Virus record (IMG/VR): IMGVR_UViG_3300001680_000750 | Span: 1 to 24,714 of that record | Length of the DNA stretch: 24,714 bases | Source: a virus | Reading direction: 5' to 3' (one strand) | Shown here: positions 13,926 to 22,873 of the stretch, in pieces | Layout of the letters: every line of letters begins with the position of its first letter | Position numbering within the stretch: the stretch's first letter is position 1 | The notes under the pieces: model-generated | Told to the model about the DNA's origin: nothing | The model's database searches: none | The model's input: only the letters and a program-made list of their open reading frames with translations | Position numbers and translations under genes: made by a program

Positions 13926-13956
13926 CGTTTATTATCTGCAAAGGTGAGCCAACCCT
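13926..13956 (-). promoter_or_regulatory. Phage promoter-like element upstream of SSB (TTGCAGA subtype)
   Basis: On the - strand AGGGTTGGCTCACC is followed by TTTGCAGATAATAAACG. Thirty of 31 bases match the element upstream of the exonuclease gene, and the first part (TTGGCTCACC) is shared with the + strand T7-like promoters. It starts right after the exonuclease stop, about 65 nt before the SSB start. Function as a promoter is inferred. Confidence 0.75.
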
Positions 13957-14804: not shown

Positions 14805-14835
14805 CGTTTATTATCTGCAATGGTGAGCCAACCCT
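14805..14835 (-). promoter_or_regulatory. Phage promoter-like element upstream of exonuclease (TTGCAGA subtype)
   Basis: On the - strand AGGGTTGGCTCACC is followed by ATTGCAGATAATAAACG, the near-identical twin of the element before SSB (one mismatch in 31). It ends 17 nt before the exonuclease start. The shared TTGGCTCACC core with + strand promoters suggests recognition by the phage polymerase. Confidence 0.78.
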
Positions 14836-14845
14836 AAAATAAAGG

Positions 14846-14873
14846 TTGACATATTAGAAAAGGGTGATATAAT
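14846..14873 (+). promoter_or_regulatory. Host sigma-70-type promoter, + strand
   Basis: TTGACA (14846-14851) and TATAAT (14868-14873), both perfect consensus, are separated by 16 nt. Transcription would start near 14880. It faces away from the replication genes, toward the structured non-coding stretch and the exported-protein gene. It is 10 nt beyond the - strand exonuclease promoter element, so the two are back to back. Confidence 0.88.
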
Positions 14874-15110: not shown

Positions 15111-15136
15111 TATATAGTTGGCTCACCTATAGAAGG
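15111..15136 (+). promoter_or_regulatory. Phage RNA polymerase promoter, T7/SP6-like
   Basis: TATATAGTT followed by GGCTCACCTATAGAAGG. Compare T7 (CTCACTATAGGG) and SP6 (CACTATAGAAG). The same core occurs at 17753 and 17860. The likely start is the G of TATAG near 15132, about 30 nt before the start codon of the exported-protein gene. Confidence 0.85.
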
Positions 15137-15163: not shown

Positions 15164-15418
15164 ATGAAAAAGACTATTACTGGCTTAGTACTACTAACTA
15201 GCTTATACACAACTGCATATGCAGGATTCTTCGATAACTTCGGCAGCAACGAATATAAAGACAATGGATTCTTCGGATACAACCACTATGAAATGTGGGA
15301 ACCTAGATGGTATGTGAAAGAGGCTGACAACTTCTTAAATGAATTTGACGATAAAAAAGGGAACAAGCATAACCACTCATTCCCCGTAACAGATCAATAC
15401 AGACCCGATTGTGACTAG
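15164..15418 (+). CDS. Small secreted protein, + strand orphan, 84 aa
   Basis: MKKTITGLVLLTSLYTTAYA is a clear Sec signal peptide, with cleavage expected after AYA. The mature part of about 64 residues is rich in aromatic, Asn, Gly and acidic residues (GFFDNFGSNEYKDNGFFGYN, then EMWEPRWYVKEADNFLNEF) and ends with a single Cys (RPDCD). AGGAAATTACA precedes the ATG. It is the only + strand gene between 3166 and the right edge, has a phage promoter and a host promoter upstream, and ends 6 nt from the RNA polymerase stop with no terminator between. The aromatic Gly/Asn-rich style faintly recalls exported proteins of sulfur-oxidising bacteria; that resemblance is from memory and weak. It may be a host-derived accessory gene. 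Confidence 0.82.
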   Translation: MKKTITGLVLLTSLYTTAYAGFFDNFGSNEYKDNGFFGYNHYEMWEPRWYVKEADNFLNEFDDKKGNKHNHSFPVTDQYRPDCD

Positions 15419-15424
15419 ATAAGA

Positions 15425-17716
15425 CTAACTGATGATGTAGTTTGAATGTAAGACTTCATCATCTGTTACGTCTCCATAGACTATTTCAGAGTCTGAGGCT
15501 CCCAAATCCTCCAGTATAGAGGATAAAGTGTCTGACCCTATAGTATCTATGAATACCATCTTAAACTCATCAAATAGGACATCTACTTGGCTCGCAGGTA
15601 CAGAGAACTGGTCATGAATCATCATAAAGTCAGTAACCCCAATGCGGCCCAACTTAGATAGCACCATAGTCATTAGAGAGGCATCAAGCGAATGAACAAT
15701 ATTAGCTGATATGCCTGTCTTATGTCTCTTCTTCAAGATACCCTTAAAGCCGAAGGCTACTGTTATCATTATCCTCTTCTCACCAAACCTAACTCTTAAC
15801 CTCTCGGTATGTATTTGACCGTACCCTTGGAAGGCTGTGAAGTTAGTAGGAGTCTTCCAAGACAAGTACACATCAGTGGCATTCTTAACCGCAGCACACG
15901 CTGTCTTTTGGAATACCTTAAGTGTATTTGCCTGTGGTGGGTAGGCTCCGTCCTTACCGTCAAGTGCTTTGAAGATACATCTAGACAAAGGCTTAGTGTC
16001 TCTAAACTTCATCTTCGTGAAGGCATCAGAGCCGAACGTAGCCCTATCATTGTACAACTGGTATCTGATACAATCTTCACCTGCTGAATAATAGTAGGAC
16101 ATACAAGGTCTTTTGGTGACCTTTCTGGAGCCATACTGTATGTAGTCATTGAATTGGAAGGAAGTAATTAGGTTTTTATCCATCTCCTTCTCATTTTCCT
16201 CTTCATCAAACTTATCCATCATCTTATACATATTGTTAACGGCAACATTCCACACTTCATCATAGGCATCACCAATCTCTCTGATAGGGTGTTGTATAAC
16301 ATTAGTATCTTGACAGCCCTTCCTATCCCTAGTTAAGAATGATAGGATTTGTAGGCCAGAGTTAGTAGCATCTAAACCAACAGGTATTCTGCACTGCCAA
16401 CCCTCACTACCATTCTCTTTCAAGTCTACAAAGGACATGGCACCTGCTAGGAATTGCCACTTGGTCTTCTTCTCACCCTGTAGTTTAAACAGTAGGGCGG
16501 AGTTAAGTGGATCTTCAACAGCATGTTTAATGGCCTCATAGTTATCATAAACCCAATTAACCCTATCCTGCTTAGATAGCTTATCCATACCTGCACAGTT
16601 GGCTATATGGTAGGCTAAGTGAGCCTCTACATTCTCTGACCATTCTTGAGTATTAAAGAATTGTAATAGAGACTTGGCCAGATCACTACCTGTAGGTTCT
16701 AACCACTGTTGCATAGGATAGAATCTACCCCTACTATCTAATTGGAAGTCAAAGAAGAAGGGTGCATCCTCTAGAGACAGAGACCCCTTACTTCTGTCAT
16801 TAATAACAGTAGCCTTCTTAATAACCATATCAAACTCTCTTCTCTTAGAGTGTGCAGCAACCACCTTAATGAGAGGGTCGGCCTTCTCTGTATACCAATC
16901 CTTAGCCATCTGTTTAGACATCTTATCTAAGTACCTACTGTTGATACCTTGAGACATAGCCCACTGAGACTTCTTATCCCTAACAAAGTCTTCTTTATTC
17001 TTAACCTTCATAAGGTCACATAGAGCCTCAGTAACTGTAGCCTGTGGTATCACCTCAGGTATCCAACAGTACCCTGCATCCTCCATAAGTTGAGCAACCT
17101 TAAGTATCCCATCATTAATCACAAAGGGTGTAGAACCATAGTTATTCAGAGCCTCATAGACATGTGGTATCTCTTCTTTAGAATACTTCTCATCCCAACC
17201 TACAGGCATTCTCTTAACAATAGAGTTAACACCCTTCCAAGGAGAAACCCAAGGGACATACTCATTAGTAGGAAAATTACCTAAGGATTCATCAGAAGTA
17301 AGTATAAGCTTAAGAAACTCATCACAGGCAGGTTCAACAGTATACATTTCATTCTTACCACCCACCTTAATAGGTTTAGCTAATCTAATACAACCCGATA
17401 AGGCTAATAGACCAACAGCCTCTATTCCAATCTTTACTAACTCTCTCTTCTTCTTATAGTTACCACCAAAGGTAAGATCAGTCATCTTCTCACCCTCTAA
17501 GTGCAATAACCTAGTACCTACAGCCTCACCTATACTAACTAATTGCTCTCTATTTGATACCCCTTTAATAACAGCCTCTAATATGATATTAGATAACTCT
17601 TCCCTATCCCCTTCATACCTTCTTAAGTACCTACATAAAGGTGAAGGATTATTATTCTTCTTTTGTATAAAATTTAACTTACTTACTAACTTGACAATAA
17701 ACTTCCTATCAATCAT
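15425..17716 (-). CDS. T7-like single-subunit RNA polymerase, 763 aa
   Basis: Transcribes middle and late phage genes from phage promoters. Landmarks of the family are all visible: DSRGRFYP (327-334), motif A VGLDATNSGLQ with Asp449, motif B TKRPCMSYYYSAG with Lys535 and Tyr543 (T7 Lys631 and Tyr639), the ANIVHSLDAS segment (671-680) and motif C MMIHDQFSVPA with Asp702 (T7 Asp812). The residue after the motif B Tyr is Ser, where T7 has Gly640. It is shorter than T7 RNAP (883 aa), mainly in the N-terminal part, so it is a divergent member. GAGGGGAAATCAAGTA precedes the ATG. It is the last gene of the early leftward unit. Confidence 0.96.
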   Translation of the reverse strand: MIDRKFIVKLVSKLNFIQKKNNNPSPLCRYLRRYEGDREELSNIILEAVIKGVSNREQLVSIGEAVGTRLLHLEGEKMTDLTFGGNYKKKRELVKIGIEAVGLLALSGCIRLAKPIKVGGKNEMYTVEPACDEFLKLILTSDESLGNFPTNEYVPWVSPWKGVNSIVKRMPVGWDEKYSKEEIPHVYEALNNYGSTPFVINDGILKVAQLMEDAGYCWIPEVIPQATVTEALCDLMKVKNKEDFVRDKKSQWAMSQGINSRYLDKMSKQMAKDWYTEKADPLIKVVAAHSKRREFDMVIKKATVINDRSKGSLSLEDAPFFFDFQLDSRGRFYPMQQWLEPTGSDLAKSLLQFFNTQEWSENVEAHLAYHIANCAGMDKLSKQDRVNWVYDNYEAIKHAVEDPLNSALLFKLQGEKKTKWQFLAGAMSFVDLKENGSEGWQCRIPVGLDATNSGLQILSFLTRDRKGCQDTNVIQHPIREIGDAYDEVWNVAVNNMYKMMDKFDEEENEKEMDKNLITSFQFNDYIQYGSRKVTKRPCMSYYYSAGEDCIRYQLYNDRATFGSDAFTKMKFRDTKPLSRCIFKALDGKDGAYPPQANTLKVFQKTACAAVKNATDVYLSWKTPTNFTAFQGYGQIHTERLRVRFGEKRIMITVAFGFKGILKKRHKTGISANIVHSLDASLMTMVLSKLGRIGVTDFMMIHDQFSVPASQVDVLFDEFKMVFIDTIGSDTLSSILEDLGASDSEIVYGDVTDDEVLHSNYIIS

Positions 17717-17752
17717 TACTTGATTTCCCCTCTTATTTAATTATATTTATAT

Positions 17753-17776
17753 GTATAGTTGGCTCACCTATAGAAG
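17753..17776 (+). promoter_or_regulatory. Phage RNA polymerase promoter, T7/SP6-like
   Basis: GTATAGTT then GGCTCACCTATAGAAG, matching the promoter at 15111 over 16 bases from GG to AAG. It lies just beyond an AT-rich block and points away from the polymerase gene, into DNA whose genes are all on the other strand. Confidence 0.85.
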
Positions 17777-17859
17777 TAACGACTAGACAGTCATCATAGT
17801 TGCATATCACTACCCCCTATTATGTGTGTTGCATAACAGAGTGTTACTTCTACTACTTA

Positions 17860-17884
17860 CTCAAGGTTGGCTCACCTATAGAGG
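17860..17884 (+). promoter_or_regulatory. Phage RNA polymerase promoter, T7/SP6-like
   Basis: CTCAAGGTT then GGCTCACCTATAGAGG, in the same direction as and 108 nt downstream of the copy at 17753. Tandem spacing of this kind is seen at the T7 primary origin. Confidence 0.83.
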
Positions 17885-17950
17885 ACAATCGAAAGACCCC
17901 CTATATTAGACTATACTAGCTCATTTGTTATCATATTTGGACGGTACTAC

Positions 17951-17975
17951 TTGGCTCACAAACCCACCCCCTAAG
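17951..17975 (+). promoter_or_regulatory. Decayed promoter copy
   Basis: TTGGCTCAC is kept, but the CTATAG start part is replaced by AAACCCACCCCC. It is third in the tandem series, 84 nt after the second. It is probably a non-functional remnant or a binding-only site. Confidence 0.4.
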
Positions 17976-17996
17976 AATACCACTTAAGAGGATACT

Positions 17997-18033
17997 ACTA
18001 TAGACCCACTATAGACTACTAGGGGGGTCTATC
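17997..18033. repeat. Operator-like repeats: ACTATAGAC twice and an inverted copy
   Basis: ACTATAGAC occurs at 17997 and 18008, 11 bp apart (one helical turn), and GGGTCTAT at 18026-18033 is an inverted match to ATAGACCC. Such spacing suits a ribbon-helix-helix repressor, and a gene for one overlaps this spot. It could also form an RNA hairpin. Confidence 0.35.
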
Positions 18034-18200
18034 GCTCCTGAGGTACTACTAGGAGTACTTACTAATTGAAACTCAACGTCCATCATAGCGATCAGCTTTA
18101 TGTAAGAAGTCCTATTGAGTCCCATTTTAGATGCTTTAATATCTAATTGTTCTAATGTCTTTTCTGGTAATTTTAAGTTAATCTGTTTAATTCGTTCCAT
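18009..18200 (-). CDS. Ribbon-helix-helix (CopG/Arc-type) DNA-binding protein, 63 aa
   Basis: Residues about 4-38 fit the fold: a beta strand KQINLKLPE, helix KTLEQLDIKASKMG and helix NRTSYIKLIAMM. The C-terminal tail is Ser/Thr/Pro-rich (STPSSTSGAIDPPSSL) and probably disordered. These proteins bind DNA as dimers and usually repress. It is the last small gene before the polymerase and sits beside tandem phage promoters and spaced repeats, so it is a good candidate for controlling the polymerase gene or those promoters. GGAG lies about 10 nt upstream of the ATG, inside the preceding gene's end. Confidence 0.85.
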   Translation of the reverse strand: MERIKQINLKLPEKTLEQLDIKASKMGLNRTSYIKLIAMMDVEFQLVSTPSSTSGAIDPPSSL

Positions 18201-18203
18201 TTA

Positions 18204-18599
18204 CTATTTACTCCATTTGTTAAGTTTAAAGGTATCTTTATTATACCGTAATTGTAGTCCATTAGAGGTTATATAAGTAAACCATTCATGATACTTTAAC
18301 ATATTACAAGCACTATCCCTAATACATTTCTGGTAGTGTCCGTTCTGTTTAGCCATCAGTGTTCCTAATACCCTCATAGGTGTCCAAATAGACCTCTCAG
18401 TGTAGTCAAACACTGGGTAGTTAAAGAAATAACTATCTTCAACAGGGAATTGAAAGTTATCATCTACTGCTGCCACACTAGAATGCATAGATATTAGGCA
18501 TACTAAGGCTAGGGTAGGGTATCGAAGTCTCTTATATATTTGAAGAGTCTTCTTCGAATTCTCTGGGCTAATTTGGAGTTCTCTTTTAGTAGTATTCAT
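18204..18599 (-). CDS. Putative exported early protein, 131 aa
   Basis: The start is put at ATG 18599 (AGGTG 7 nt upstream; TAATG overlap with the previous stop) rather than at the GTG nine bases earlier. A long basic N-region (MNTTKRELQISPENSKKTLQ) leads to a hydrophobic core YPTLALVCLISM and a likely signal cleavage near VAA, with mature protein from VDDNFQF. The mature part has aromatic residues and a cysteine pair (KCIRDSACNM). An early protein sent to the periplasm could block superinfection or modify the envelope. No family recognised. Confidence 0.72.
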   Translation of the reverse strand: MNTTKRELQISPENSKKTLQIYKRLRYPTLALVCLISMHSSVAAVDDNFQFPVEDSYFFNYPVFDYTERSIWTPMRVLGTLMAKQNGHYQKCIRDSACNMLKYHEWFTYITSNGLQLRYNKDTFKLNKWSK

Positions 18600-19027
18600 T
18601 ATATGCACCTATTGATTAAAGCCCAATGACCATGAATATCATAGTACATCCTGTCAGTGTGCCTAGTACTTACTTCTTTACTTACCTTAACCTTATCAGA
18701 GATAGGCTTTAGTACTCTCTCACTAATGCCATCCATGCAGGACAATCTAGTCCCTGCTGTAGACACCTTACACCCTAAGTGTTCTGCTAAAGTTGCACTA
18801 GTCCATTCTGACCCATCGTCTAACGTATAGGTATACCTACCGTCATTACCTTTAGACCCATGTGCACACCTTGTAGGGCTTACGGACTTGTAGACCCTAC
18901 TTGGATCAGTGAATTTAATAAGTCTTGAGTAGCAGGTACTACGAGGGTATCCTGTCTCAGCTACCATTTCATCCACGGTTGTAATAGTACCGTCATCTAA
19001 TTTATAAGTTCTAGTTGATTTGTTCAT
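18599..19027 (-). CDS. Protein with duplicated DNA-binding-like unit, 142 aa
   Basis: Two similar blocks are visible: residues 8-47 (YKLDDGTITTVDEMVAETGY onward to RVYK) and 67-107 (YTLDDGSEWTSATLAEHLGC onward to RVLK). Each reads as a short beta hairpin followed by helices with a Thr/Ser...RL pattern, resembling helix-turn-helix units attached to phage homing enzymes, but no nuclease is present. It may bind DNA as a monomer through both units. The C-terminus is short and basic. It overlaps the upstream gene by 17 nt and the downstream gene by one base. Confidence 0.72.
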   Translation of the reverse strand: MNKSTRTYKLDDGTITTVDEMVAETGYPRSTCYSRLIKFTDPSRVYKSVSPTRCAHGSKGNDGRYTYTLDDGSEWTSATLAEHLGCKVSTAGTRLSCMDGISERVLKPISDKVKVSKEVSTRHTDRMYYDIHGHWALINRCI

Positions 19028-22249: not shown

Positions 22250-22531
22250 TTAATCCTCCACCGTGTAGTAAGTACCACCTGCACGTACTCTAAAGATTGT
22301 GCTTAGGTTTATCGTTCTGTACTCACCTTTAATGGCTTCATATACAACCTTGTAAGCGTTACTCTCTTTTTCTACCTTATTGATACCACCCTTAAGCTTA
22401 GATGTAACACCTAATCTACAAGTCATTGTTCTAAGTGTTCCGTCCTTCTTAGTGAAGTCCACAGTAAAGAATTTACCTTTAGTATTGTCAATCAATCTAA
22501 GTAGCTTTGTTCTGTCTATTACTTCAATCAT
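22250..22531 (-). CDS. SH3-barrel-like phage protein, 93 aa
   Basis: The central segment FFTVDFTKKDGTLRTMTCRL then GVTSKLKGG, followed by YRTINLSTIFRVRAGGTYYT, matches a small conserved phage family often labelled SH3 beta-barrel fold protein, found in many unrelated phages. The function is unknown. The ATG overlaps the upstream stop (TAATG); its ribosome site GAGGATAAATA and start codon are part of a 44-nt direct repeat. The length is typical. Confidence 0.78.
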   Translation of the reverse strand: MIEVIDRTKLLRLIDNTKGKFFTVDFTKKDGTLRTMTCRLGVTSKLKGGINKVEKESNAYKVVYEAIKGEYRTINLSTIFRVRAGGTYYTVED

Positions 22532-22568
22532 TATTTATCCTCATGTTTATGTTTATATGTTGCTTTGT
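22525..22568. repeat. 44-nt direct repeat, copy 1
   Basis: Matches 22830-22873 with a single A/G difference. It covers the shared C-terminal codons (KATYKHKHEDK), the stop, the ribosome site GAGGATAAATA and the first codons (ATGATTG) of the next gene. Confidence 0.92.
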
Positions 22569-22836
22569 ATAATTCCATCATTTTCTCGTATTGCTTTTTA
22601 TTTATATATTGTGGCAACCCTATATCATGATAGAAAGAACCCATCGGAGATGAGAAATCTAAATATAGTTTTCCAGATTTGAGTTGATTTTGCCAATCAT
22701 TAATGGCTTCCTCTCCCCATTCTCTTTTTATGTCATCTACTTGACTCATACCAGAACCACATGTATATGGGTCAAATATTGAAGTCCACGATTGCTCGTC
22801 TGTAAAGTTTGCAAAAATCTCACTAGTATCAATCAT
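22531..22836 (-). CDS. Hypothetical protein ending KATYKHKHEDK, 101 aa
   Basis: Begins MIDTSEIFANFTDEQSW; acidic and aromatic, with helices in the second half, ending in a basic histidine/lysine tail identical to that of the gene upstream. GAGGATAAATA precedes the ATG and lies inside repeat copy 2. No family recognised. Confidence 0.72.
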   Translation of the reverse strand: MIDTSEIFANFTDEQSWTSIFDPYTCGSGMSQVDDIKREWGEEAINDWQNQLKSGKLYLDFSSPMGSFYHDIGLPQYINKKQYEKMMELYKATYKHKHEDK

Positions 22837-22873
22837 TATTTATCCTCGTGTTTATGTTTATATGTTGCTTTGT
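22830..22873. repeat. 44-nt direct repeat, copy 2
   Basis: The partner of 22525-22568, 305 nt away, with one mismatch. It spans the end of the 54-aa gene and the start of the 101-aa gene in the same relative position as copy 1. Confidence 0.92.

Follow-up and report, generated by a model that had tools for sequence, protein, structure and literature searches.

Conserved tandem phage promoters directed away from a T7-type RNA polymerase gene, and a predicted structured RNA that begins at the first of them

The DNA analysed here (the window) is a virus record of 24,714 bases, in which nearly all genes beyond about 3.4 kb, up to the right end, lie on the minus strand. The genes on this strand include those for an exonuclease, an SSB-like protein, a primase-helicase, a DNA polymerase and a single-subunit RNA polymerase (RNAP) of the T7 type. 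A gene-free gap (17717-18008) separates the RNAP gene from an open reading frame (ORF) at 18009-18200, and an earlier sequence-only reading of this DNA had located two intact tandem promoters there, beside the RNAP gene. Our analysis bears this out: the two sites, P1 and P2, are identical, exact copies of TTGGCTCACCTATAGA that begin at 17759 and 17867 on the plus strand and are oriented away from, and opposite to, the RNAP gene (Table 1).

Table 1. Features of the RNAP locus in the window
Feature	Position	Strand	Evidence
T7-type single-subunit RNAP gene	15425..17716	-	Pfam RNA_pol E 1.1e-44; PHROG 414
P1, phage-RNAP promoter core, +1 at ~17773	17759..17774	+	Exact repeat; matrix score 38.2; 5/5 relatives with RNAP 5' flank
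P2, second phage-RNAP promoter of the tandem pair, 108 bp past P1, +1 at ~17881	17867..17882	+	Exact repeat; matrix
Third intact promoter copy, ahead of small plus-strand ORF 15164-15418	15118..15133	+	Exact 16-mer; matrix; absent from earlier reading
Variant promoter CACCATTGCAG, ahead of exonuclease gene	14816..14831	-	Recognition part same as P1/P2; matrix; absent from earlier reading
Variant promoter CACCTTTGCAG, ahead of SSB gene	13937..13952	-	Recognition part same as P1/P2; matrix; absent from earlier reading
"Decayed copy" of promoter, TTGGCTCAC only	17951..17966	+	Exact 9-mer; window only
AT-rich block upstream of P1, forming the RNAP 5' leader	17731..17757	.	7% GC; ties for lowest-GC 27-mer of window
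Predicted structured non-coding RNA of 78 nt, begun at P1; 17773-17780 pairs with 17843-17850 to form the stem	17773..17850	+	96-99% identity; paired changes in L009; held-out model's best L043 match at corresponding place
Tandem TATAGAC-type repeats, then G+C-rich inverted repeat, at gap's far end; candidate operator or terminator region	17997..18050	+	
Small ribbon-helix-helix (RHH, CopG-like) protein gene, adjoins gap	18009..18200	-	CopG_antitoxin E 7.7e-5, below curated cut-off

The motif has the character of a T7-type RNAP promoter, being a short sequence repeated across the genome and made up of a recognition part, a TATA-like part and an initiating G. Three exact copies of TTGGCTCACCTATAGA are present in the window, and four sites are found at up to three mismatches where 0.34 would be expected; its nine-base portion TTGGCTCAC occurs six times against an expectation of 0.19, a count reached in none of 100 shuffles. 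A weight matrix from 28 training sites, which include the window sites and those of a related genome (G001) that it was then used to score, separates five sites in the window (33.7-38.2 bits) from the next best at 10.4, and seven sites in G001 (27.3-39.7) from the next best at 7.1, the tandem pair accounting for two of the seven. The promoter set is therefore small. Plus-strand copies read CACC[TA][AT]TAGA; on the minus strand the sequence closes with TGCAG or TACAG, and the G start is missing. Across all 28 sites compared, the presumed start is C in the minus-strand promoters (TGCAG/TACAG) and G in those of the plus strand (TAGAA/TAGAG), which suggests that there are two promoter classes. The sequence-only reading also described a decayed third copy in the gap, at 17951; only nine bases match, however, and the site is confined to the window, none of the aligned relatives having it, and it consequently carries little weight.

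Some further features of the window lie outside the gap. The small plus-strand gene at 15164-15418, which is positioned tail to tail with the RNAP gene, has a signal-peptide-like start and no family match. A sigma-70 promoter that is perfect at 12 of 12 positions (TTGACA-16-TATAAT with an extended -10; 14846-14873, plus strand) reads toward this small ORF and then antisense to the RNAP gene; the aligned relatives retain it along with the conserved block AGAGGCCTACC..GAGGAACC. Just past the RNAP gene, a terminator-like hairpin followed by a T run (15358-15385, minus strand) would terminate the early operon. The early region contains a 45-bp direct repeat (22524-22568 and 22829-22873, 98% identical) and a gene (18599-19027, minus strand) whose product matches the Ren-like exclusion protein family (PHROG 16568, E 8.7e-11).

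Conservation of the promoter pair was assessed across 25 RNAP loci from viral contigs. L004, which encodes a 100% identical RNAP and has the same gap, was left out of the relative counts, and L025 comprises the 3' part of the RNAP gene only. All five relatives that include the RNAP 5' flank carry the tandem pair opposite to RNAP, so that related phages keep promoters at the gap, which the sequence-only reading had proposed as a check. In four of these (L005-L008) the RNAP is 82-85% identical to that of the window, and in the fifth (L009) it is 58-59% identical. The distance between P1 and P2 ranges from 108 to 140 bp across the six loci. In L009 the motif is changed to TCGCACCTATAGAGAG at both the P1 and P2 places while the pair is still present; the promoter motif changes with the RNAP (59% identical), as seen in one lineage, and the phage group thereby offers two natural RNAPs whose promoter specificities have changed along with them. 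The remaining 18 loci encode RNAPs that are 36-47% identical over the best segment. Eight of these (L010, L011, L014, L016, L017, L019, L020 and L021) were examined upstream and none has such a gap, the upstream ORF ending no more than about 75 bases from the RNAP gene. Searches with the RNAP profile, the L009 RNAP or genome contigs yielded no further relatives with the gap, and a search with the RNA sequence pattern returned four extra contigs, which have no RNAP match.

The AT-rich block that the sequence-only reading had noted in the gap is real, but lies behind P1 and not ahead of it, where the role proposed would require it. We read it as the RNAP leader, with a Shine-Dalgarno-like GAGGGG on the minus strand, and the interval from the RNAP ATG to P1 is 94-97% conserved in the four close relatives. 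A host promoter search for RNAP inside the gap gave one weak match on the minus strand. At the far end, the TATAGAC-type repeats (17997-18015) are spaced by 11 bp and occur also in L006, L007 and L008; they could represent an operator for the RHH protein. A hairpin of the GCCCC/GGGGC type is found at the corresponding gap end in L005, L006, L007 and L008, and in L005, L006 and L008 the plus strand encodes, about 130-160 nt past P2, a G+C-rich hairpin whose tail contains U. The RHH gene adjoins the gap in the window, G001 and L009, and the L009 homologue, which aligns with the window protein at 48% over 33 residues in BLASTP, passes the RHH_1 cut-off.

The strongest conservation is between P1 and P2, not past P2. 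Over gap-free columns this segment is 96-99% identical in the four close relatives, compared with 0.689-0.783 for the four-fold sites of RNAP; pairwise identities between the window and L009 are inflated by gaps and were left out of this comparison. A transcript initiated at P1 is predicted to fold into an RNA of 78-85 nt in which the 5' end, at the +1 of P1, pairs with the 3' end. The stem from +1 comprises 9-11 pairs, with G-U pairs allowed, and its partner segment ends at +78 to +85; such a stem was equalled by 56-194 of 20,000 shuffles, depending on the sequence. When L009 is compared with the window group, all eight aligned pairs of the stem are kept and four of them are changed on both sides, a result reached by one in 500 shuffles, and the slid controls gave no such pairs. 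The fold thus appears to be kept by compensatory changes, all of which come from this single lineage. A covariance model constructed without L009 has its best match in the 15.5 kb L009 record at the P1 transcript, with ends that deviate from those expected by no more than one base (19.1 bits, E 0.0024). The same held-out model also matches L020 at a position unconnected with the gap (17.3 bits), so it is the location of the L009 match and not its score that counts. With a six-sequence model the RNA is found once per genome, only at the gap, and not in the 37% group. Fold z-scores are weak in the window group (-1.1 to -1.6, and -0.35 for a shortened L005 stretch) and reach -3.3 in L009, where a T run follows the stem; this T run is absent from the window group in the alignment. 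No Rfam family matches the window at the gathering score, and within the gap Rfam gave a chance-level match only (E 1.5, minus strand).

No gene is evident for P1 and P2 to serve, as the sequence-only reading had maintained. There is no downstream gene within the window, and in G001 (49,768 bases; P1 at 32168 and P2 at 32301) no plus-strand gene of note follows for about 6.2 kb. Short plus-strand ORFs are present in G001 and G002, as would be required if the promoters drove a small peptide gene in or past the gap; however, the ORFs past P1 and P2 are not conserved and vary in frame, length and sequence over the six loci, and a C run differs in length by one base, which argues against coding. 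This explanation was already disfavoured and we regard it as very improbable.

The early minus-strand genes of G001 end near 38 kb, and a late operon encoding terminase, portal, scaffold and capsid proteins begins on the plus strand at 38597, with a single promoter at 38500. These are the next long plus-strand genes, so P1 and P2 are directed toward the late operon, from which they are separated by 6.3 kb of early genes. It is conceivable that fast phage polymerases starting at the pair cross the early genes, block the host polymerase and enter the late operon, thereby combining antisense shut-off with late supply, and nearly all ORFs between P2 and the late operon are indeed on the minus strand. 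Nevertheless we consider this improbable, as the G+C-rich hairpin past P2 in three of the relatives means that transcripts may stop there, and the conserved RNA fold would be left unexplained. A further element of this region in G001 and G002 is a sense phage promoter (at 32506 and 31466, respectively) that faces P2. A decayed form can be read from the alignment in L008, and none was seen in the window alignment. The opposed arrangement in G001 and G002 suggests a feedback node.

The sequence-only reading interpreted the gap as a candidate primary replication origin of the kind found in T7, at which the phage RNAP would start at P1 and P2 and the transcript would prime leading-strand DNA synthesis. 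The likeness to the T7 origin region (phi1.1A and phi1.1B) includes tandem phage promoters near RNAP, an RNA hairpin between them, a non-coding gap and, less distinctly, an AT-richer stretch past the second promoter, and the gap segment here is also conserved. Since a hairpin also separates the two origin promoters of T7, an RNA fold is compatible with an origin. In addition, the AT skew at four-fold sites flips sign at the gap, between RNAP and the early genes, in the window, G001 and L009, but a similar flip in L020, which has no gap, makes this signal suggestive and not specific. The place is not equivalent to that in T7, as the sequence-only reading had supposed: phi1.1A and phi1.1B are downstream of RNAP (gene 1) and co-directional with it, whereas the pair described here is upstream and opposite. 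The spacing also differs (75 bp in T7 and 108 bp in the window). T7 has a clear AT-rich stretch (17% GC) past its second promoter and genes directly downstream, whereas here no gene follows for kilobases and the AT-rich block lies behind P1. The AT-richest stretch past P2 (25% GC over 40 bp) is of a common kind, being matched in 413 of 1537 sampled 128-bp stretches of the window. The cumulative GC skew, another check that the sequence-only reading had proposed, has no extremum at the gap: over the full G001 genome it turns near 38 kb and 17 kb, at divergent/convergent gene junctions, and not at 32 kb. Taking into account also that conservation is strongest between the promoters and not past P2, we view an origin as possible but rather unlikely.

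The interpretation that we favour, at about even confidence, is that P1 and P2 constitute a dedicated non-coding unit transcribed by the RNAP that the phage itself encodes, most likely producing a countertranscript that acts on the RNAP gene or the early operon, with a role in trans included as an option. The sequence shows that the promoters are paired and directed away from RNAP, that they are conserved, and that a conserved fold is predicted from the P1 +1; transcription, RNA ends, pairing and repression are inferred. Once made, the phage RNAP would transcribe the gap in the direction opposite to the early message, to which, because of the gene order, P1 and P2 RNAs would be antisense (RHH gene, then RNAP). 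The products would be a folded RNA of about 80 nt together with longer transcripts from both promoters, which may stop near the G+C-rich hairpin at the far end of the gap. The countertranscript, along with collision with oncoming transcription, would then act as negative feedback by holding down continued expression of RNAP and the early operon. Within this interpretation, action as a countertranscript is put forward tentatively, and action of the RNA in trans is the less likely part and somewhat doubtful. When gene starts are ranked by duplex energy, predicted pairing between the P1 RNA and the RNAP start is not notable (19th of 32 in the window and 15th of 18 in L009), and no shared trans target was found, the best target differing among the window, G001 and G002.

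The proposed countertranscript has a counterpart in plasmid copy number control. In plasmid pMV158 the RHH gene copG is followed by the counter-transcribed RNA II and then by the controlled gene repB. In the window, likewise, an RHH gene is present and promoters on the opposite strand lie at the leader of the gene thought of as controlled, but here that gene encodes a single-subunit RNAP, the promoters are those of the phage RNAP, and repression and pairing are putative. We raise, as a speculative and fairly unlikely proposal, a circuit resembling that of plasmid copy number, in which the polymerase is controlled from the 5' edge of its gene by an RHH repressor together with a folded countertranscript that the polymerase itself produces; in some members a sense phage promoter faces the antisense pair, which would place positive and negative feedback in one 300-bp gap. 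The T7-like phage LUZ100 (PMC10134795) is similar in having a phage-specific promoter (phi1) in front of RNAP, a regulator gene nearby and antisense RNA. It differs in that phi1 is sense to RNAP and that its antisense RNA is in the structural region.

In searches of one open-access collection, none of the listed titles reports an antisense tandem promoter pair at a phage RNAP gene. T7 RNAP is usually described as being without negative feedback from its own promoters. If our interpretation is correct, a conserved polymerase-driven RNA opposite RNAP would be a new layer of control in a major phage group; otherwise the locus may represent an unusually placed origin of the T7 type.
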